This document shows, one piece after another, positions 12,609 to 40,204 of a stretch of DNA of 45,840 bases. The stretch lies in contig PCTW01000039.1 in NCBI GenBank assembly GCA_002786715.1, positions 1 through 45,840 of the forward strand, written 5' to 3'. This DNA comes from Bdellovibrio sp. CG22_combo_CG10-13_8_21_14_all_39_27 (GTDB taxonomy: Bacteria; Bdellovibrionota; Bacteriovoracia; Bacteriovoracales; Bacteriovoracaceae). Position 1 is the stretch's first letter, and each line of letters begins with the position of its first letter. The position numbers and the translations under genes are program-made. The notes below the pieces were generated by a model, which was not told the origin of the DNA, ran no database searches, and saw only the letters and a program-made list of their open reading frames with translations.

Positions 12609-12992
12609 TTAACTCAATCGGTGTTGGAACTTTTGGAAGACGATGATGTTGTCATCGGGATCTTGGACGGCGAACCAAGCTCTGCCCCACTGGTTGATCT
12701 CGAGAGGAAGACAGATGTCCGTTTGCTTTTCTAGTTTTTGAAAATGTTCTTTGAGCTCTTCGACTTCGACCACCAGACTTGGCTTACCAAGGATCATGCC
12801 ATCATGGGCGTGTTCGGCGTCGGTTTCATCTGTCAGAATAATTTTAAAGGTGTCAGAGACTTGGAAGATGGCTCCTCTTTCACCACTTTTCTCGCCCCAT
12901 TGGGAGAGCAGTTTAAAACTGAGTTTCTTTTGGTAAAAGAGAAAACTTTCATCGTAGTTTTTGGGACGCAGAAGATGAAAGATGGAACTCAT
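12609..12992 (-). CDS. VOC (glyoxalase/bleomycin-resistance) superfamily protein
   Basis: A 127-residue single-repeat vicinal-oxygen-chelate protein. It has the N-terminal FHLLRPKNYDESFLFYQKKLSFK helix and strand typical of the fold, a middle KPSLVVEVEELKEHFQKLEK section, and the terminal WFAVQDPDDNIIVFQKF, where the Asp-Pro-Asp-x-N block is a common VOC signature. Substrate is unknown. Its start overlaps the stop of the upstream sensor gene (ATGA), making it the last gene of the flagellar transcript. A metabolic or regulatory link to motility is therefore possible but unproven. Confidence 0.75.
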   Translation of the reverse strand: MSSIFHLLRPKNYDESFLFYQKKLSFKLLSQWGEKSGERGAIFQVSDTFKIILTDETDAEHAHDGMILGKPSLVVEVEELKEHFQKLEKQTDICLPLEINQWGRAWFAVQDPDDNIIVFQKFQHRLS

Positions 12993-15376
12993 ACGTCGAG
13001 TGTTCTTTCTTTCTCACTATGGATGGGTTGAAGGACTTGTTCTTCATAACCCATCTCTTGAACATCGTGACGACGTTCTGTTACAAGTTCTTGTCCCCAT
13101 TGCACATGACGTCTGACTGATTGGAATGATTCATACATTTCTTTGAGGGATTTGATGATCATCTCTTCACTCTTTTCAGATTGTCTGGTCACGCGACCGA
13201 CGTGGTATTGGTTTTCTTCAATCGCTTGAACTAATTTAGTTTGTGATTGAGTAATCGCCGAAATGTCTTGGCCACTTGCGGTTTGGCTGATCATTTCAAT
13301 TTTTGAGAAAGTGACATCGAGGCCTTTGATGGAGTGGTTCAATTGATTAAGCACTCTCTCAAATCCCTTAATTTCCATTTTAATTTTACCAAAAGCACCT
13401 TCGAGTGAACTATCAAGTCCTTCTCTGCGACAGAAAACTAAGGTTTGTTCAAAAGTTTGCACTAATTGGAAGCGGTAGTTTTCAATTTCTTCTCTGAGCT
13501 TATGGAACTCTTCGCGCATATTGCGAACGCCGGTTAGGGCCTTTACATTTTCAGCGAGAATATCGTTCGAGTGGTGAGTCATGGTAAAGAGCGAGTGAAC
13601 GTTCTTTTGAATGTCTTTGATAATATTCTTTTGACCTTGATCCATTTCATCTAACTCATAGCGAGTTTGAACATAAGACATCAAGAGCTTCTTCACGTCT
13701 TCGAAAGAGGCAACGATCTTGGTATTGTCTTCATTTAAGGCCATCAACTTGTCATTCAAATCATCGACTAATTTATGTTCGTCGTAGAGATGATTTTCAA
13801 GTCTTTCAATTTCGGCCAGAAGAGAATTTTTTTGCTGGTTAAAAAGCGTGTTGACTTGAACAAATTTTGAAAAGACGTCTTCAATTCCCGCAATGCCAAA
13901 ATCTTTCTCAATTTTGTCCATAAATTGCTGATTGAAACTATTATTCATCAAGCAGTCGAGTGACTTCGAAACTGGACTTAAGATCGCGCGAGTTTGGTTT
14001 GCCATGGTTTCTTCTACTGAGCGAAGCGGATAGAAGAAGATCATGATACGGCGTTGTTCTGCGTATTCAACCGGAGACACGTACATTTCGTAAGGAAGCG
14101 ACTCTGATTGTCCGTGTTGAACTTGAATTTGATAAATACCTGCTATGCCTTCTTTAAGCGCCATCATGACTGGGTCAACGTCACCGAGGTTGGTTGATTG
14201 TTGGAGGTAATCCCACGACCACGTCTTCTCTCTTTGGTTTTGATCTATCGACCAGTTATCAAAAAAGAGTTGATTGGCCCAAACCATATTAAGATTGCTA
14301 TCAAGAAGTAAAGCAGAGAATGGAAGGGCATCTTGAAAGATCGCTCCAAAGCTCATGCGCTTGTGGACATACTCGCGATTCTTTTGCATTTCATCGTTAA
14401 AGTGCGGACTCATTTGATAAGGAAGCTTCGGAGATAGAGGAAGCAGACCTTCTTTAATGATAGTCATCGAAAATTCTTCGAGCTTCTTCTCCATTCTTTT
14501 TCTGTCGATCTTTGAGATGACTAGAGTCATTCCTGCAAAGCCCATCATCATGGCCGCGAGACCTACGATCAAATAGAGAAAATATTCTGAGTATTTCTCA
14601 ATTTCTAATTTCTTTAAGCTCATTTGGGGTTCAATGGATTGCATCCATTCCCCATAGGAATTGACCAATTTTTTATGACTAGTGTTGAAGCGACGAAGCT
14701 GCTCAACATAAGTTTCCATCATACCGATTTCTTTATCGAGTGAGGCCAAGCGAGAAATAATATTGGCCTTATCTTTTTCAGGAAGAACTGATCCCGAAGT
14801 AATCGATACCATATTTTTGATATCGCTCTTGAGGTTGAGGACAAGTGAGGAAACTTTATTATAGCTAAACGAGCGCTCTGTTCTGAAATTCCCTGGCGAA
14901 GATCTGAGCATTAGTCTTTGACTGATTCGCATCAAAGTAGGCCATCTGTTCTCGGTTACAAAATTCGAGAAGTTTCCTAATTTATCACTGAGAACGGAGA
15001 GAATATTTTTAAACTCAGGAACCGCAATCATCAGCTTTAAGACTTCTTTGCTTTCTTTTAATTGGTTTGAGAAGTTGTTTTCATTAGTTTGAGAAAAAGT
15101 CTTTTGAACTTCATCAACTTTTTTCTCAAAGCTTTCCAATTCAGTAAGCGCACTTCTTGATTCATCAGATTCAACTAACTCAAAAAGTCTTTCCACTTTC
15201 TTTTGTTTTTTGAGGCCATCCATCATTTGATTGGTTTCATAGATAGATGAAGCAACGTCTGGATTGAGTAATCCCTTTTGCCAAAATGAATATGAGAGCC
15301 AACTTATTCCAACCGCGGAAAGAATAAAAGCCACTACTGCAAAAGGAAATAGATAACTACGAAATGATAGTTTCAT
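12989..15376 (-). CDS. Membrane sensor with chemoreceptor-like layout, PAS domain and long coiled coil
   Basis: A 795-residue protein. A first transmembrane helix (residues about 8-30) is followed by an extracytoplasmic helical region to about 265, then a second helix (YLIVGLAAMMMGFAGMTLVI). A PAS-like domain spans about 345-455 (FSALLLDSNLNMVWANQLFFDNW). From there to the C-terminus it is predicted helical coiled coil. The shape resembles a methyl-accepting chemotaxis protein. However, I do not find the conserved hairpin tip (the NLLALNAAIEAARAGE-type sequence) or a kinase, GGDEF or phosphatase domain. How it signals is unknown. It is co-transcribed with fliA and the 301-residue gene upstream, so a role in flagellar control is plausible. 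Confidence 0.6.
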   Translation of the reverse strand: MKLSFRSYLFPFAVVAFILSAVGISWLSYSFWQKGLLNPDVASSIYETNQMMDGLKKQKKVERLFELVESDESRSALTELESFEKKVDEVQKTFSQTNENNFSNQLKESKEVLKLMIAVPEFKNILSVLSDKLGNFSNFVTENRWPTLMRISQRLMLRSSPGNFRTERSFSYNKVSSLVLNLKSDIKNMVSITSGSVLPEKDKANIISRLASLDKEIGMMETYVEQLRRFNTSHKKLVNSYGEWMQSIEPQMSLKKLEIEKYSEYFLYLIVGLAAMMMGFAGMTLVISKIDRKRMEKKLEEFSMTIIKEGLLPLSPKLPYQMSPHFNDEMQKNREYVHKRMSFGAIFQDALPFSALLLDSNLNMVWANQLFFDNWSIDQNQREKTWSWDYLQQSTNLGDVDPVMMALKEGIAGIYQIQVQHGQSESLPYEMYVSPVEYAEQRRIMIFFYPLRSVEETMANQTRAILSPVSKSLDCLMNNSFNQQFMDKIEKDFGIAGIEDVFSKFVQVNTLFNQQKNSLLAEIERLENHLYDEHKLVDDLNDKLMALNEDNTKIVASFEDVKKLLMSYVQTRYELDEMDQGQKNIIKDIQKNVHSLFTMTHHSNDILAENVKALTGVRNMREEFHKLREEIENYRFQLVQTFEQTLVFCRREGLDSSLEGAFGKIKMEIKGFERVLNQLNHSIKGLDVTFSKIEMISQTASGQDISAITQSQTKLVQAIEENQYHVGRVTRQSEKSEEMIIKSLKEMYESFQSVRRHVQWGQELVTERRHDVQEMGYEEQVLQPIHSEKERTLDV

Positions 15377-16317: not shown

Positions 16318-17103
16318 CTAGCTAGCAAGATCTTCTGGTCCGTCCACCACTGTTCTCAGTTTTGCACGAAGCTTTAAGACAGCTTGTGTATGCAATTGAG
16401 AGACGCGTGATTCTGTGACGTCGAGAACTTGTCCTATTTCTTTGAGGTTAAGATCTTCGTAATAATAAAGTGACAATACAAGACGTTGCTTCTCAGGAAG
16501 CGACTTGATCGACTCTTTAATTTTCTCTCTCAAATTCTTGTGATTAACAGCATGAAATGGGTTCGTGCTGCGACTATCTTCCATCAAACCAGCAATCAGT
16601 TTACGATCGCCTTTATTGAAAGTTGCTGAGTCATCAATATTGAGAACAGAAATTGATTTTGCTTTATTTAAAAGATCATAGAAATCATCTTGGCTTAAGC
16701 TTAATTCTTTACACATTTCATCGTCAGTCGCTGGGCGACCAAGATCAGCTTCGAGCTTGGCATAAGTTCTTTCAACAAGCTTGGCCTTTTCTCTGATTGA
16801 ACGAGGAACCCAGTCTTGAGCGCGCAATTCATCAAGAATCGCTCCTCTTACTCTGAATTCAGCATAAGTTTTAAATTTGTTATCGCGACCTGGATCGAAC
16901 TTGTCGATGGCGTCCATTAGACCGATCACACCGCAAGAGATCAGGTCATCAAGTTCAATATTAGAAGGTAATCTAGACGCAATTTTTTGCGCAATATATT
17001 TAATGAGCGGAGCATATTCTACAATAATTTCATCTTTTGTCTTAGGGTCGATAGTCGTTCTGTAATCTTTGAGGTTCTTTAATTTTTTTGCCAGTGTAGA
17101 CAT
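16318..17103 (-). CDS. fliA: Flagellar sigma factor sigma28, FliA/WhiG family
   Basis: Directs RNA polymerase to late flagellar and chemotaxis promoters. The protein has a region 2 typical of FliA (DLISCGVIGLMDAIDKFDP, then FKTYAEFRVRGAILDELRAQDW) and region 3 (IREKAKLVERTYAKLEADLGRPATDDEM). Region 4 carries LPEKQRLVLSLYYYEDLNLK and a helix-turn-helix at EIGQVLDVTESRVSQLH. I chose the ATG at 17103, which has AAGGAG seven bases upstream; a TTG codon precedes it. It follows flhG by 11 bases. Targets may include the glycine-rich protein gene at 38495, whose upstream region carries a CCGATAA box. Confidence 0.95.
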   Translation of the reverse strand: MSTLAKKLKNLKDYRTTIDPKTKDEIIVEYAPLIKYIAQKIASRLPSNIELDDLISCGVIGLMDAIDKFDPGRDNKFKTYAEFRVRGAILDELRAQDWVPRSIREKAKLVERTYAKLEADLGRPATDDEMCKELSLSQDDFYDLLNKAKSISVLNIDDSATFNKGDRKLIAGLMEDSRSTNPFHAVNHKNLREKIKESIKSLPEKQRLVLSLYYYEDLNLKEIGQVLDVTESRVSQLHTQAVLKLRAKLRTVVDGPEDLAS

Positions 17104-17114
17104 CAACGAGCTCC

Positions 17115-18062
17115 TTAGATGTGGTTAGTACGGACTTCTTGTCCTTGTTGTGGACCCCTGTAAGGAGTAACAGAGATGGCCTTTCCAATCCTGTTCCCCG
17201 ACAAAGGCAGTCGACTAATTCCCTCGTGAGAAGGAACGTCGTCGAGATACTCGTCGGTGAAGGATTTTATGATTTTAATAAAATCAGAATGTATATTTGT
17301 ACCGGCAGATTTTAACAGCTCTTGATCAAATTGATCCACGGATTCGGTCTGAAAACGAATGCCACCTAGCACTCGAACACGACACTGAAGGAATTGGTTT
17401 ACGGTATCTCCGAAAGCTTTAATCAGGCGAAGATATTGAGTTTCACTGCTGATTTTGTTCAACACGAGATGGAAATCATTCACGCCATATTTGTTATTCA
17501 AAATTTTCACTAGCGAGTACGCATCTGTAATGGAAGAACGATCCGGAGCCAACACCACCATACGGTGATCACAATAAGCACAAATAGATAGGTTTTCTTT
17601 CACTAGACCGGCAGGACAATCGAGCAAAATAAAATCGTAATTATTTTCTTGTTGGGCCATCACTTCAAACAAAATCCGATCGACCATCGATTGATTTTCG
17701 AATAAATCTTCATTGCCGTTACAGCCTTTCAAGAGATGAAACTGGCCGTCTTGATAAATACTTTGACTGAACTCTAAATTCGAATTTACAAATTCGTTAA
17801 ACTTATTATCGAGAGGGATTCCAAGCTTAACTGCCGTGTTTGAGAGATTGTAATCACAATCAATCAGAAGAACTTTATAGCCTTGGTCAGCGAGAATTTT
17901 TGCTGTTTTGATTGAGACAGAGGTCTTACCAACGCCGCCTTTTCCAGAAGCAATAGCGATTGTTTTCGCTCTTCCAGTAAGTCTACGACTCCCCTTGGTT
18001 TGTGTCTGCTGATCATTTTGATGGTGCGAAAGCAACCAATCCCTGGTCTTCGATTCGGACAT
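17115..18062 (-). CDS. flhG: Flagellar number regulator FlhG/FleN (MinD-like ATPase)
   Basis: FlhG is a MinD-type ATPase that limits flagellar number and placement together with FlhF. The P-loop is the deviant Walker form SGKGGVGKTS, with lysines at 41 and 46. It is followed by LIDCDYNLSN and the switch-II block FILLDCPAGL. The C-terminal helix that would bind membrane is not obvious. The N-terminal tail, which in many FlhGs carries a DQAxxLR motif activating the FlhF GTPase, here reads only DQQTQTK. The ATG at 18062 is preceded by AGGGG; another ATG is 15 bases upstream. It lies 38 bases after flhF and immediately before fliA. Confidence 0.9.
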   Translation of the reverse strand: MSESKTRDWLLSHHQNDQQTQTKGSRRLTGRAKTIAIASGKGGVGKTSVSIKTAKILADQGYKVLLIDCDYNLSNTAVKLGIPLDNKFNEFVNSNLEFSQSIYQDGQFHLLKGCNGNEDLFENQSMVDRILFEVMAQQENNYDFILLDCPAGLVKENLSICAYCDHRMVVLAPDRSSITDAYSLVKILNNKYGVNDFHLVLNKISSETQYLRLIKAFGDTVNQFLQCRVRVLGGIRFQTESVDQFDQELLKSAGTNIHSDFIKIIKSFTDEYLDDVPSHEGISRLPLSGNRIGKAISVTPYRGPQQGQEVRTNHI

Positions 18063-18100
18063 CCTGTCCCCTCTCATGTTAATGTCTCTAAAAAATTTAG

Positions 18101-19528
18101 CTACACAAAATCAAACATACCGGCCAAAATCCTTTCAGCCGATGCTGCTTCTATATCCTCTGGGACAGTCGGTCCTGTTCCAAAAAAGACGTAGGGCAGT
18201 TTATTCACTTCATAGTTCAGGTTAAATAGTGAGCCGAAACTCAAACACTGATCTAGATGTGTTAACGCAATTCCATTGGCCAACGATTGATATCGTTTGC
18301 ACATTCTTAAATTGTAAATCTCTGCGTGAATTGAGGAAAGACATAACAAAATTTCCACATTGTCGAAAGCTCTTTTCAACCCATCAATCATCTGCTTTGT
18401 TTCATTCACTTCATTCGGCAAAGTCTTGAAGTCAATAAGAATTGATTGCCCCTTCTCAACTGCCTTTCTGGTTGCTGAAACGATCTCTGGAATGCTCTTA
18501 GCATTCACAACATCCATTCCAAAAACTTTTTCGGCCATGCTCTTGTTTTGGCTTTCTTCTTCTTTTCCAAATTTCACAATCGTCATCTTTTTTCTGAGTG
18601 CAGCGATTTTTTGAATCATCGATGTCTGACCGGTAGAGGTCTCAGATAACAAGACTGTAATAACGGGCTTATTTCCAGCTTCTTCTTTCGAGAAAAGCGG
18701 GGTGTCCACCTGAATTTGATTAATCATATCTTTAAGCGCCAACTCAAAAGGAGCTTCTTCGCTTTGTAATTCTTCTCTTGAAAGTTCAAAAACAGATTTC
18801 TTAACAAGCTCTTGAATATAAATTTCGTTCACTTCAAGACTGCGAAGAACGCTGCGAAGCTTATACACGCCAATCGGCTCAGGCTTCTCAATTCTCTCAA
18901 CCATCTTTGTGAGTTCATAAATTTTTCTTTCAAGATCTTCAATTTTTCTTAATTGATTTTCGTTGGTGGCTGCTTGAATAGTATTTGTTTCAACTTGTCG
19001 AGCCACTTGAGTTTCAACTTCTCTTTGAGCTTCTCTTACCGTTTGTCTTGGAGCAGGCGCTTGAACAGGTGCTTCATCCATAAAATCGTCAAAACTCTCT
19101 ACTGGTTCACCGGCACCTGTTCCTAAAAAATCGTCTAAGCTTGTGATGATCTTTTGACCAATATTTTTCACTTGCTGAACAGGCTTATTAAGTCCGGCTG
19201 CCCCATAACCTAGTGGGCCAGGTGCTCTGTCAACTCGTTGTCCTTGAGGCAAATGAGATTCATGCTGATCAATCATATTGGCAATATAAGAAGAAGGTGC
19301 TTGATAAAACTTTTCTTTTTGATCGAGAGGCATTTTTTGATCAACACGTGATTTTTTAACAAAGCTTTTTTCCGAAATAGCTGCAGTGATTTCAACTTTC
19401 TTTTTAAAAGCGCCTTTTATGCCTTTGTTGTTAACTGTTTTTAGAATAATCGCATCAGGGCCAAGCTCTTGCTTGATACTTCTGAGGGCTTCTTCCATGG
19501 TGTCAGCTTCAAACTTCTTTACGTACAT
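18101..19528 (-). CDS. flhF: FlhF, SRP-type GTPase homologue with degenerate nucleotide site
   Basis: FlhF normally recruits the first flagellar components to the pole as a GTP-dependent dimer. The N-terminal B domain is typical (MYVKKFEADTMEEALRSI, then ELGPDAIILKT). A linker rich in Pro, Gln and Glu runs from about 70 to 200, and the NG domain fills the rest. In the G domain the P-loop reads LSETSTGQTS (residues 294-303), so the first Gly and the essential Lys are lost (Gln301). The DTYR motif is missing and DTAGR is replaced by DFKT (residue 366). TKLD reads THLD. Only the terminal TGPTVPEDIE block is well kept. The frame is open, so this is not a pseudogene; it is probably a non-hydrolysing FlhF. 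Confidence 0.9.
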   Translation of the reverse strand: MYVKKFEADTMEEALRSIKQELGPDAIILKTVNNKGIKGAFKKKVEITAAISEKSFVKKSRVDQKMPLDQKEKFYQAPSSYIANMIDQHESHLPQGQRVDRAPGPLGYGAAGLNKPVQQVKNIGQKIITSLDDFLGTGAGEPVESFDDFMDEAPVQAPAPRQTVREAQREVETQVARQVETNTIQAATNENQLRKIEDLERKIYELTKMVERIEKPEPIGVYKLRSVLRSLEVNEIYIQELVKKSVFELSREELQSEEAPFELALKDMINQIQVDTPLFSKEEAGNKPVITVLLSETSTGQTSMIQKIAALRKKMTIVKFGKEEESQNKSMAEKVFGMDVVNAKSIPEIVSATRKAVEKGQSILIDFKTLPNEVNETKQMIDGLKRAFDNVEILLCLSSIHAEIYNLRMCKRYQSLANGIALTHLDQCLSFGSLFNLNYEVNKLPYVFFGTGPTVPEDIEAASAERILAGMFDFV

Positions 19529-19531
19529 AAA

Positions 19532-21607
19532 TTACAACCTCACTGTACCTAGAGATCTGATATTGGCATCAGGACTCAATTCATTGTGGCTAATCACAAC
19601 GAGATTAGGTATGAACTTTTCAGTTAATTTTTTAAAATGTTGCCGTATTACTGGCGAACATAAAACGACCATTTTCTCTCCAACGCTCGTCGCTTCCTCG
19701 ATCTTCTCATTTAAACTAGCAAGAATGGTTTGTGTGATTTTTGGATCAAGCGAAAGCTGCTGACCTTGTTCAGTTTGAACAAGATTATGTGCAATGTTTT
19801 CTTCAATCTTACGATCCAATGTAAATAATGGCACGTCACCCTTCTGGCTACGCACGTACTCTGTTATAGTACGATATAAAGCTTGTCGGACAAATTCAGT
19901 TAACATATCCGTGTCTTTTATTTTACCACCATACTCAGCAAGTGTCTCAAGTATTGTCCGAAGATCTCGGATTGAAACACCCTCTCTTAATAGATTTTGT
20001 AGAACTTTTAAAATCTGGCCAAGATTTAAAATATCGGGAATTAGGTCGGCGACAATTTTTGGATATTGTTCTTTAAAATGATCAAGTATTCTGACCAATT
20101 CTTGACGACCAAAGAGCTCTTGCATATTGGTCTTGAGTATTTCAGTCAAATGAGTGGCAACGACAGTGGCAAGATCAACTACTGTATAGCCATTGAATTG
20201 AGCATCGTCTTTTTGATCTTCAGTAATCCAAACAGCTGGCAATCCAAAGACAGGTTCAACTGTAGTAATCCCATCCATCTGCTCAATCACAGTTCCAGGA
20301 TCCATCGCCAAGAAGTGATCTGACATCAACTCACCTTTAGCAACTTCAATCCCTTTGATCATAATTCTGTAACCAGCAGGCTTGAGTTCGAGGTTATCTT
20401 TGATTCGAACCGAAGGAATGATAATCCCCCAGTCGATAGCAAATTGTTTTCTGATATGAGTAATGCGCTCAAGAAGATCACCATTTTGTTCGGCATCTAC
20501 CAAGTTGACCAATCCATAACCCACTTCAAGTTCAATCAGCTCGAGAGAAAGGAGATCTTCGAGATTGTCAGGTGTTGCCTTTTTATCTTCAACGATTTTT
20601 TGTGAAGCTTCGAGAGACTCTCTAGCCGCACCTTTCTCAATTCGATTGGCGGCGAAAGTCAGCATCAGCCCAATCATGATAAAAGGAAACTTTGGTAGAC
20701 CAGGAATTAATGAAAGCACAAACAAAGATCCTGCGGCGATATAGATGGCCTTTGGATGAACTTTGAATTGCTTACCAATTTGTCCACCGAGATTGTCATC
20801 TGATGTATTTCTTGTGGCAATAATACCAGCAGCAGTAGAAATAATAATGGCAGGAATCTGAGCGACGAGACCATCACCAACTGTCAAAAGAGTAAAGACT
20901 TCTGTCGCTTGAGAGAAGTCCATATTGTTTTGAATCATACCGACGATAATACCGCCAATCACGTTAATGGCCGTAATCAAAATACCGGCAATAGCATCTC
21001 CGCGAACAAACTTACTGGCACCGTCCATAGACCCGTAAAAGTCAGCTTCTTCAGCGACTTCACGTCTTCTTCTTTTGGCTTCTTTGTCGTCAATCAATCC
21101 AGCATTTAAATCCGCATCGATCGCCATTTGCTTACCTGGCATGGCATCCAAGGTAAATCGAGCAGCGACTTCGGCCACACGACCAGCACCTTTGGTGATA
21201 ACCATAAAGTTTATGATCACGAGGATAGTAAAAACGATAATACCGACAACGTAATTCCCTTCAACCACGAACTCACCGAAGGACCGAATAATTTCTCCGG
21301 CCGCTGCTGTTCCTTCTCCACCACCTCTCAAAAGAATGTTACGAGTGGACGCGACGTTAAGTGACAAGCGAAACAAAGTCATCACGAGGAGGACTGTTGG
21401 AAAGGTTGAAAAATCGAGAGGTTTTTTTGAATAAACCGCTACCAGCAAGATCAATACAGATAAGGCCAAGGTAAGCGAGAGAAGCAAATCGAGGACGATT
21501 GGTGGAATAGGAACCACCATCACGGTCAAAATAAGAATAAGACCAACAGCAACCGCGAGGTCAGAATTCTTTGTTAGAAAGGCGAATCTATCCATGAATG
21601 ATTTCAT
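19532..21607 (-). CDS. flhA: Flagellar type III export gate protein FlhA
   Basis: FlhA is the large export-gate protein that forms a nonameric ring and receives chaperone-substrate complexes. The 691-residue protein has about eight transmembrane helices in the first 330 residues. It carries the FHIPEP family block RLSLNVASTRNILL and a cytoplasmic loop with KGAGRVAEVAARFTLDAMPGKQMAID. The soluble C-terminal domain starts near residue 340. Length and motifs are normal. The ATG overlaps the flhB stop (ATGA), with AGAGG upstream. It precedes flhF by four bases. Confidence 0.97.
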   Translation of the reverse strand: MKSFMDRFAFLTKNSDLAVAVGLILILTVMVVPIPPIVLDLLLSLTLALSVLILLVAVYSKKPLDFSTFPTVLLVMTLFRLSLNVASTRNILLRGGGEGTAAAGEIIRSFGEFVVEGNYVVGIIVFTILVIINFMVITKGAGRVAEVAARFTLDAMPGKQMAIDADLNAGLIDDKEAKRRRREVAEEADFYGSMDGASKFVRGDAIAGILITAINVIGGIIVGMIQNNMDFSQATEVFTLLTVGDGLVAQIPAIIISTAAGIIATRNTSDDNLGGQIGKQFKVHPKAIYIAAGSLFVLSLIPGLPKFPFIMIGLMLTFAANRIEKGAARESLEASQKIVEDKKATPDNLEDLLSLELIELEVGYGLVNLVDAEQNGDLLERITHIRKQFAIDWGIIIPSVRIKDNLELKPAGYRIMIKGIEVAKGELMSDHFLAMDPGTVIEQMDGITTVEPVFGLPAVWITEDQKDDAQFNGYTVVDLATVVATHLTEILKTNMQELFGRQELVRILDHFKEQYPKIVADLIPDILNLGQILKVLQNLLREGVSIRDLRTILETLAEYGGKIKDTDMLTEFVRQALYRTITEYVRSQKGDVPLFTLDRKIEENIAHNLVQTEQGQQLSLDPKITQTILASLNEKIEEATSVGEKMVVLCSPVIRQHFKKLTEKFIPNLVVISHNELSPDANIRSLGTVRL

Positions 21608-38494: not shown

Positions 38495-40147
38495 TTAGAA
38501 TCCAAATCCGGCATAGCCACCGATGCTAAAGTTCGCACCAAGGTTCCCCATACCGTAAGCATTGCCACCATAGTAGCCTCCGCCCATTCCACCCATGCCG
38601 GCATAGCCCGTTCCCATTGCATAGTTCTGACCGGCATTAGCATACTGCGAATATAAATTCTGGCCAGCTGCTTGTCCTGTCATCATGTTGCCTTGGTTTC
38701 TGTAGCTAGCAAAAGCACTCGCTTCTTGCATCTGCATTTGTTGCTGATACATTTGTTGTTGATATCCACCAGCATTCCAGCCTCCGGTATTTCCCCAGTA
38801 TGATCCACTAGGATATCCACCCATGCCGCCGATGCCTCCGTATCCGCCCATGCCTCCACCGCCGTAGCCGCCTAAGCCTCCACCGCCGTAGCCGCCTAAG
38901 CCACCACCGCCGTATCCGCCCATGCCACCACCACAAGGTGAAGTGATACACATCATTCCGCCACCGTAGCCGCCATAGCCTGGATTCATTCCCCAGCCCA
39001 CACCACTACCAACGCCTAAACCAATTCCAGCTCCGATCATTCCCGGTCCGCCGTATCCATATCCTGGGTATCCACCCATGCCGCCGCCTAAGCCGCCACC
39101 GAAGTTAATTCCGCCACCGATTCCGATACCGCCTGGGTATGGCATTCCCATGCCGTAGCCCATTCCCATACCGTTACCCATTCCTGATCCCATTCCGTAT
39201 CCCATGCCGTAGCCCATCCCAAAACCGGGGCCACCACCCATACCGAATCCGCCACCCATTCCTGGGCCACCGAACCCGCCGCCGAATCCACCCATTCCTG
39301 GGCCACCGAATCCGCCACCAATATTAATTCCGATTCCCCCACCAATACCTGGTCCACCGAATCCGCCCATTCCATATCCGCCCATGCCCATTCCAGGCAT
39401 TCCCATTCCATATCCACCGCCCATTCCATATCCGCCAGGCATTCCGAATCCACCGCCTAGGCCTCCACCAATTCCAAGATATCCACCGATACCAATTCCT
39501 GGTCCGCCCATGCCGTAACCGCCCATGCCGCCGCCATACATTCCGCCGCCCATTCCAAAACCAGGGCCCATCATTCCGCCCATAAAGCCTGGAGAATAGC
39601 CTGCTGACAAAAAGGGATTTCCGCCTCCGCCATATCCAGATCCATACATCCCACCCATACCTGCAAATCCGCCCATGCCATAAGAGTTACATGAGTTCAT
39701 GAGGCCTTGAGCTTCGTCTGGAAGAATGGGGTTAGCTCCTCTTTGAATAGAGTAGTCCATATAAGAATTAAATCTTGCAGTACAACCTGCGTGACCAGCT
39801 TCATAAGCACCGGCCCATTCTTTTTGAGTCTTGTATTGATATTTTGCACCGACATAGGCCGTACCAAAAAGTGCGAGTGGACCGGCCACAATACTTAAAG
39901 CATCTACCCATGGGTTACTTTGTTTTTCTTGATAGAAAAGACATTCGACACAGTCGACGTCCATGCCTGAAGCGATACTGCCTTTCAAACAGGCTGAGTA
40001 TTCGTTCCGAAATCTATTTTGATTGATACCATTACAATCATCAATAGACATGGCTTGAGCGACTTCCAAATGGGCCATCGTTAGCGTTAGAAATAATCCA
40101 ACACCTATCTTGCGCCACTTGAGAGAATTTTCAGAAGGTCCTTTCAT
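38495..40147 (-). CDS. Secreted glycine/methionine/tyrosine-rich low-complexity protein
   Basis: A 550-residue protein. A signal peptide (KWRKIGVGLFLTLTMAHLEVAQA) is followed by a Cys-rich head of about 140 residues with six Cys (DCNG, YSAC, DCVEC, GC, NSC). A hydrophobic stretch (IVAGPLALFGTAYVGA) lies inside the head. About 290 residues of GMGGYG, GGFG and GGGL repeats follow, with two further Cys in CITSPC, then a Gln/Met-rich spacer (QQQMYQQQMQMQ) and a final Gly/Tyr part. Repeats of this kind form flexible or adhesive extracellular structures in other proteins; here the function is unknown. I chose the ATG with GGAG upstream; a TTG lies 12 bases before. A sigma28-like promoter with a C7 run lies upstream. 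Confidence 0.85.
   Translation of the reverse strand: MKGPSENSLKWRKIGVGLFLTLTMAHLEVAQAMSIDDCNGINQNRFRNEYSACLKGSIASGMDVDCVECLFYQEKQSNPWVDALSIVAGPLALFGTAYVGAKYQYKTQKEWAGAYEAGHAGCTARFNSYMDYSIQRGANPILPDEAQGLMNSCNSYGMGGFAGMGGMYGSGYGGGGNPFLSAGYSPGFMGGMMGPGFGMGGGMYGGGMGGYGMGGPGIGIGGYLGIGGGLGGGFGMPGGYGMGGGYGMGMPGMGMGGYGMGGFGGPGIGGGIGINIGGGFGGPGMGGFGGGFGGPGMGGGFGMGGGPGFGMGYGMGYGMGSGMGNGMGMGYGMGMPYPGGIGIGGGINFGGGLGGGMGGYPGYGYGGPGMIGAGIGLGVGSGVGWGMNPGYGGYGGGMMCITSPCGGGMGGYGGGGLGGYGGGGLGGYGGGGMGGYGGIGGMGGYPSGSYWGNTGGWNAGGYQQQMYQQQMQMQEASAFASYRNQGNMMTGQAAGQNLYSQYANAGQNYAMGTGYAGMGGMGGGYYGGNAYGMGNLGANFSIGGYAGFGF
38853..38924. repeat. Three tandem 24-base repeats in the glycine-rich gene
   Basis: Two identical 24-base units (38853-38876 and 38877-38900) and a third variant (38901-38924) encode three GGYGGGGL/M-type octapeptides. 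Perfect in-frame units like these can expand or contract by slippage without breaking the reading frame. Confidence 0.8.
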
Positions 40148-40204
40148 GGGATACTCCAAAGTACATCATTTAATTTATTAGGTTCACACACCTATACCTT
40201 CGTC

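Follow-up and report, generated by a model that had tools for sequence, protein, structure and literature searches.

An FlhF-like protein without canonical GTPase motifs, conserved across the Bacteriovoracaceae

Introduction

SRP-type GTPases share four motifs: the P-loop GxxGxGK[ST], the G2 motif DTYR or DTxK, the G3 motif DTAGR and the G4 motif [TS]KxD. FlhF is the third SRP-type GTPase; its family, its SRP fold and its pairing with FlhG are known already. Canonical FlhG stimulates FlhF via a DQAxxLR activator, the Gln of which is co-catalytic in GTP hydrolysis by FlhF (PMC12826062). In Shewanella, FlhF contacts FliG through its B domain and the landmark HubP through its NG domain, the latter regardless of nucleotide; hydrolysis stimulated by FlhG is thought to reset FlhF (PMC11236974).

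The need for the GTP cycle of FlhF in polar placement is disputed, since point mutants disagree between species. In Vibrio alginolyticus, flagella are still made by the K305A mutant, in lower number, and are abolished by T306A and D439A; K305A and K437A are each tolerated, with number and polarity lowered (PMC6092412). According to reports on Vibrio and Pseudomonas, placement needs GTP binding and not hydrolysis (PMC12713375, PMC6092412).

A dead nucleotide-binding protein beside a MinD-like ATPase has been described in another pathway: BcsE, with degenerate NTPase and GGDEF domains, is a partner of BcsQ (PMC7439463). The likeness to the FlhF presented here would be a nucleotide-binding fold that has lost catalysis and serves a SIMIBI ATPase as binding platform, whereas the fold (RecA-like plus GGDEF) and the pathway (cellulose secretion) differ. 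The open-licence literature searched yielded no degenerate or pseudo-GTPase FlhF, no clade-wide case with a replaced FlhG motif, and no function of FlhF in Bdellovibrio or Bacteriovorax.

Results

The flhF locus

The window is a stretch of 45,840 nucleotides of contig PCTW01000039.1, from a member of the phylum Bdellovibrionota and the GTDB family Bacteriovoracaceae (code f1), of which the other named loci are from Bacteriovorax, Halobacteriovorax and uncultured Bacteriovoracaceae. The gene order flhA-flhF-flhG-fliA, all on the minus strand, is that of the FlhF lineage. The flhF frame runs from ATG to stop and is frameshift-free. Its features and its two outer neighbours are as follows.

19532..21607, minus strand: flhA, upstream neighbour of flhF
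18101..19528, minus strand: flhF-lineage gene, putative FlhF-like pseudo-GTPase of 475 aa, from profile scores
19328..19528, minus strand: N-terminal B domain of the FliG-interaction type, residues 1-67, highly conserved
18671..18886, minus strand: N domain, residues 215-286, helical
18620..18646, minus strand: former P-loop (G1), residues 295-303, S-E-T-S-T-G-Q-T-S, from alignments
18527..18571, minus strand: former G2 region, residues 320-334, lacking DTYR and under no constraint
18422..18433, minus strand: former G3, residues 366-369, DFKT, Asp kept and Gly lost
18311..18331, minus strand: new family-specific fixed block IHAEIYN, residues 400-406 (E403, Y405, N406), from column entropy and conservation
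18245..18262, minus strand: former G4, residues 423-428, THLDQC, with an invariant Asp, no Lys and a new C428
18149..18181, minus strand: G5 or closing block GTGPTVPEDIE, residues 450-460, kept
16318..17106, minus strand: fliA-type sigma factor, downstream of flhG

None of the four SRP GTPase motifs is present in the protein, which reads SETSTGQTS at the P-loop, DFKT at G3 and THLD at G4 and has no DTYR or DTxK. Within residues 289-307 (VITVLLSETSTGQTSMIQK, with S295, G300 and Q301), the Lys is changed to Gln at 301, the first Gly to Ser at 295 and the Pro to Glu at 296. Compared with canonical FlhF (8r9r, 2px3, 2px0), the B domain, linker, NG fold, operon order and terminal TG..VPEDIE are alike, but the family protein has lost the G1 Lys, the G2 DTYR, the G3 Gly and the G4 Lys. 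The GPDAIILKT block of the B domain is conserved inside and outside the Bacteriovoracaceae.

The Pfam SRP54 profile matches FlhF with 27.5 bits (cut-off 22.7), starting only at residue 337. With the NCBIfam equivalog TIGR03499, the score is 61.9 bits against a curated cut-off of 174.15, a value that no Bacteriovoracaceae genome reaches. A second, canonical FlhF backing up the degenerate copy was considered and rejected: in a search of the whole own genome, SRP54 matched only two other proteins, which are read as Ffh and FtsY from their frame length, and no family member passes TIGR03499.

A preliminary description of this DNA had recognized an FlhF with an intact frame that lost its GTPase motifs. 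The lineage is borne out by the gene order, the B domain and the predicted NG fold, and the motif changes (Gln301 for Lys, no DTYR, DFKT for DTAGR) recur in the relatives. The B domain and the closing block TGPTVPEDIE are kept as claimed; THLD, listed with them, is so only by half, as its Asp is retained and the Lys has become His.

Elsewhere in the window, positions 38495-40159 (minus strand) encode a protein of 554 aa that matches no NCBIfam profile and contains a very long low-complexity stretch rich in Gly, Met and Tyr. In the own genome (G000), the flagellin N-terminal domain is matched eight times, on contigs C34, C45, C83 and C87.

Predicted structure

In the AlphaFold model of FlhF, the B and NG domains are confident and the linker is disordered. 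The B domain is predicted as beta-alpha-beta-beta, with a pLDDT of about 92 over most of it. The solved structures nearest to the NG model are SRP GTPases: it superposes on the FlhF structures 8r9r (Z = 20.0, rmsd 3.1 over 223) and 2px3 (Z = 20.0, rmsd 2.8 over 224), and E. coli FtsY (6fqd) ties with them at Z = 20.3; the predicted fold is of the SRP class and not specific to FlhF. A phmmer search against the PDB sequences gave no significant match (best E = 0.29; 0.36 for the B-domain chain 9en1), FlhF being too divergent for a single-sequence search.

Conservation in the family and the phylum

The named set consists of the window and 80 named loci, hence 81 family proteins. Q301, S295, K307, D366, E403 and N406 are identical in 81/81. 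D426 is found in all 80 proteins scored, G300 in 80/81, and Ser or Thr at position 302 in 79/81. The retention of Gln and DFKT across relatives, a point raised in the preliminary description, is thus clear for Q301 and D366, and relatives with an intact P-loop, sought within the Bacteriovoracaceae as counter-evidence, were not found.

The phylum-wide alignment reaches into deep lineages of the family and takes in 88 FlhFs from outside it; one family sequence is present twice. Position 301 is Gln in 38/38 family rows and Lys in 88/88 rows of other families. Residue 296 is acidic in 31 of the 38 family rows and Pro in most others; an acidic residue at this place would be unfavourable for phosphates. 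When the motif columns are omitted from tree building, one change accounts for the Lys/Gln state at 301, and the family forms one side of a branch with an SH-aLRT of 100 and a length of 1.87. Because this branch is long, the tree does not settle the nearest outgroup. Three lineages (G001, G003 and G140) are very divergent in it.

The fates of the motifs differ: the P-loop is remodelled and G2 is lost. Within the family, the column entropy of the former P-loop is 1.18 bits, against a G-domain mean of 1.84, and that of the former G2 stretch is 3.27 bits, against 1.64 in other families. The IHAEIYN block is fixed at 92-95% in the family and has other residues elsewhere. S295, Q301, E403, Y405, N406 and C428 were switched to, or are fixed only in, this family. 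The equivalents of the nucleotide contacts (D366, G300, S/T302, D426 and T451-G452) hardly vary, as though something still sat in the pocket.

Between related species, the dN of the G domain is about 0.02-0.13, well below that of the linker, for a dS of 0.5-1.2. The remodelled FlhF is under strong purifying selection. This agrees, together with the intact 475-aa frame, with the earlier opinion that the loss is unlikely to be decay.

The FlhG partner

The gene following flhF encodes a MinD-type ATPase with a changed N-terminus.

17115..18077, minus strand: flhG, MinD-type ATPase, KGGVGKT intact
18027..18056, minus strand: N-terminal helix of FlhG with a new [DE]-W-L-x-S motif, residues 8-17 (W14), replacing DQAxxLR

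As in the FlhG/FleN system with DQAxxLR, a MinD-type ATPase with an N-terminal helix adjoins FlhF. Unlike there, the DQAxxLR activator is found in 0/75 of the named family FlhGs, and [DE]-W-L-x-S in 75/75. Among the sequences found with a pattern requiring the Trp, W is present in 103/103, L in 101/103 and S in 91/103; W14 is also invariant in a 42-row FlhG alignment. In the FlhG model, residues 8-24 form a helix, with modest confidence. A link between the Trp motif and E403/N406 across divergent lineages was dropped, being inconsistent by eye.

In the phylum, DQAxxLR is seen only in FlhGs whose FlhF neighbour has GK[ST] and [TS]KxD intact (families f7, f8, f9, f27 and f29). In the Bdellovibrionaceae-like families it is absent, the P-loop of FlhF is kept and the G4 Lys is lost in 37/48. 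There are also 11 outgroup FlhGs without DQAxxLR that adjoin an FlhF carrying the G4 Lys, and Pseudomonas FleN is reported to lack the motif although its FlhF is intact (PMC12713375). Because of these two cases, the loss of DQAxxLR alone is no proof of a dead FlhF. The replacement of the motif in FlhG points to a lost GTP cycle, and is the strongest corroboration that the sequences offer for it.

The FlhF of the Bdellovibrionaceae-like family (f6, e.g., L182; a family name that we infer) shares with the Bacteriovoracaceae protein the phylum, the operon, an altered G3 and G4 (DYTGL, TSLD) and an FlhG without DQAxxLR, but it retains a GPAGSGKTS P-loop and DTFK, and is presumably still a nucleotide binder. 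The Bdellovibrionaceae-like loci L182, L151, L154, L158 and L177 combine an intact P-loop with DFTGL or DYTGL at G3, TSLD or TGLD at G4 and an FlhG without DQAxxLR. This pair is possibly a half-way state. Both the GTPase motifs and the activator seem to have eroded stepwise, with the Bacteriovoracaceae as the end point.

FlhF in a genus without detectable flagellum genes

Among the 129 family genomes searched, FlhF was found in 119 and FlhA in 117, and nine lack both. In G008, G013, G026, G030, G036 and G147, FliG is present and both FlhA and FlhF are missing; these are either incomplete bins or cases of real operon loss.

Genus g33 comprises four genomes, two of them at 98-99% completeness, and gene absence is only as good as the completeness of the assembly. 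Flagellar export, C-ring and flagellin genes are undetected: FlhA, FliG, FliP and flagellin have no match in any of the four. Three of them keep FlhF with the Gln motif, its gene directly followed by those of a FliA-type sigma factor and a PAS-like membrane protein. No flhG was found at the flhF locus, and the best FlhG-like match reaches only E = 1e-9 to 1e-14. Between two g33 species, the G domain of FlhF has a dN of 0.05 with a saturated dS; given this value and the unmatched flagellar genes, FlhF is conserved there without a detectable flagellum.

A FliF-like protein of g33 lies just downstream of a sigma-54 regulator, i.e., at the syntenic fliF site: the regulator is 53% identical to the one before flgB-flgC-fliE-fliF-fliG in the genome of the window (names other than FliF and FliG given by order and sequence reading). 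The assignment comes from a profile comparison (E = 2e-7, probability 94%). A FliG domain fused to this protein was unsupported (E = 0.016, probability 3%). The g33 loci are L046 (3544-4671), L222, L220, L221 and L234 (7642-9135). In G028, a genome of 1.6 Mb, a sigma-54 regulator likewise precedes a FliF-like protein (L237, 7148-9690; PF01514, E = 6e-16); no further fli genes lie beside it, and FlhF and FlhA were not found in that genome.

The PAS-like protein is encoded near fliA.

12989..15376, minus strand: membrane, PAS-like, coiled-coil protein, family-specific; PAS and membrane character read by eye

It is present in 69/85 family loci, including all three g33 loci, and in 0/6 outgroup loci, and it gave no informative family match. 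It is a candidate partner. The HubP/FimV profile TIGR03505 gave no match, but neither did it in control genomes.

Discussion

FlhF of the Bacteriovoracaceae very likely does not hydrolyse GTP and likely does not bind nucleotide, judging from its motifs. We consider it somewhat probable that it is an FlhF-derived pseudo-GTPase that serves as a polar tether irrespective of nucleotide, and that FlhG has come to bind or regulate it differently. The preliminary description had suggested, on FlhF alone and without the changes in FlhG or genus g33, a version that may not bind or hydrolyse GTP and is perhaps a permanent scaffold. If the cycle is removed from a scheme of the Shewanella type, a tether remains. 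By analogy with Shewanella, the B domain would hold FliG/FliF and the NG domain a polar partner. FlhF would no longer switch from GTP dimer to monomer and back, and would be permanently competent. Its release, or the control of its number, may have shifted to FlhG, which in its ATP cycle would offer its Trp helix for direct binding to what was the GTPase domain. S295, Q301, E403, Y405 and N406 could stabilise the empty pocket or make a new contact.

The Vibrio mutants fit this scheme in part: the equivalents of T306 and D439 are kept in the family, and those of K305 and K437 are lost. Since K305A keeps its flagella, a missing Lys is not by itself a sign that function or all binding is gone. 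Cells of Halobacteriovorax marinus BE01 carry one flagellum, which is polar (PMC5760749). The locus named H. marinus, from an isolate other than BE01, has the Gln form.

Our confidence in the tether goes no further because the near-invariant contacts and the Vibrio data allow a ligand in the pocket. FlhF might be a sensor, or a switch that is slow or locked, with loose binding of a guanine nucleotide, be it GDP, GTP or an alarmone (e.g., ppGpp), and no hydrolysis; the ligand would be held via the G4 Asp, the G5 block, Ser/Thr302 and the Gln. The invariance of D426 and D366 and the near-invariance of G300 and Ser/Thr302 go beyond the apparent need of a pure scaffold, and the fold matches of the model include FtsY and Ffh structures with (p)ppGpp. 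Against binding speaks the joint loss of the G1 Lys, the first and second Gly of the P-loop, G2, the G3 Gly and the G4 Lys with the following Glu, as does the acidic residue within the P-loop; we regard this explanation as unlikely.

It is improbable that the chief role of FlhF in this family lies in a different polar structure, as partner of FliF and of the PAS-like membrane protein, with its flagellar use secondary. Genus g33 is in line with it, as it keeps FlhF, FliA, the PAS-like protein and the FliF-like protein without detectable flagellum genes or FlhG, but most flhF genes lie directly after flhA, and the nine family genomes that lack FlhF and FlhA jointly show the pattern of a flagellar gene. 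A wider version of the tether is doubtful, though conceivable: nucleotide-free FlhF would be the core of a permanent tether with a new FlhG contact, and the FlhF/FliF-like pair of g33 would survive as a flagellum-independent polar platform.

Neutral decay, with FlhF dispensable and drifting to a pseudogene, is very improbable. The unconstrained G2 region and the very divergent FlhFs of G001, G003 and G140 could suggest it, but the frame is open in nearly all of the 119 matching genomes, with stops in just two, and both purifying selection and the complete identity of Q301, S295, D366, E403 and N406 contradict drift. An artefact of sequencing, assembly or annotation in a single genome has practically no chance, the motif being common to dozens of independent assemblies, including that of the isolate Bacteriovorax DB6_IX. 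Sequencing error and pseudogene were both rejected on the family-wide residues, the open frames and dN/dS.

This family of predators appears as evolution's own experiment: the GTPase and activator motifs are gone and FlhF is strictly conserved. It gives material to separate tethering from switching, and to study the action of FlhG without hydrolysis, and g33 allows asking what FlhF and FliF do alone. If true, the wider reading, tether plus platform, would separate placement by FlhF from the GTP cycle and from the flagellum.
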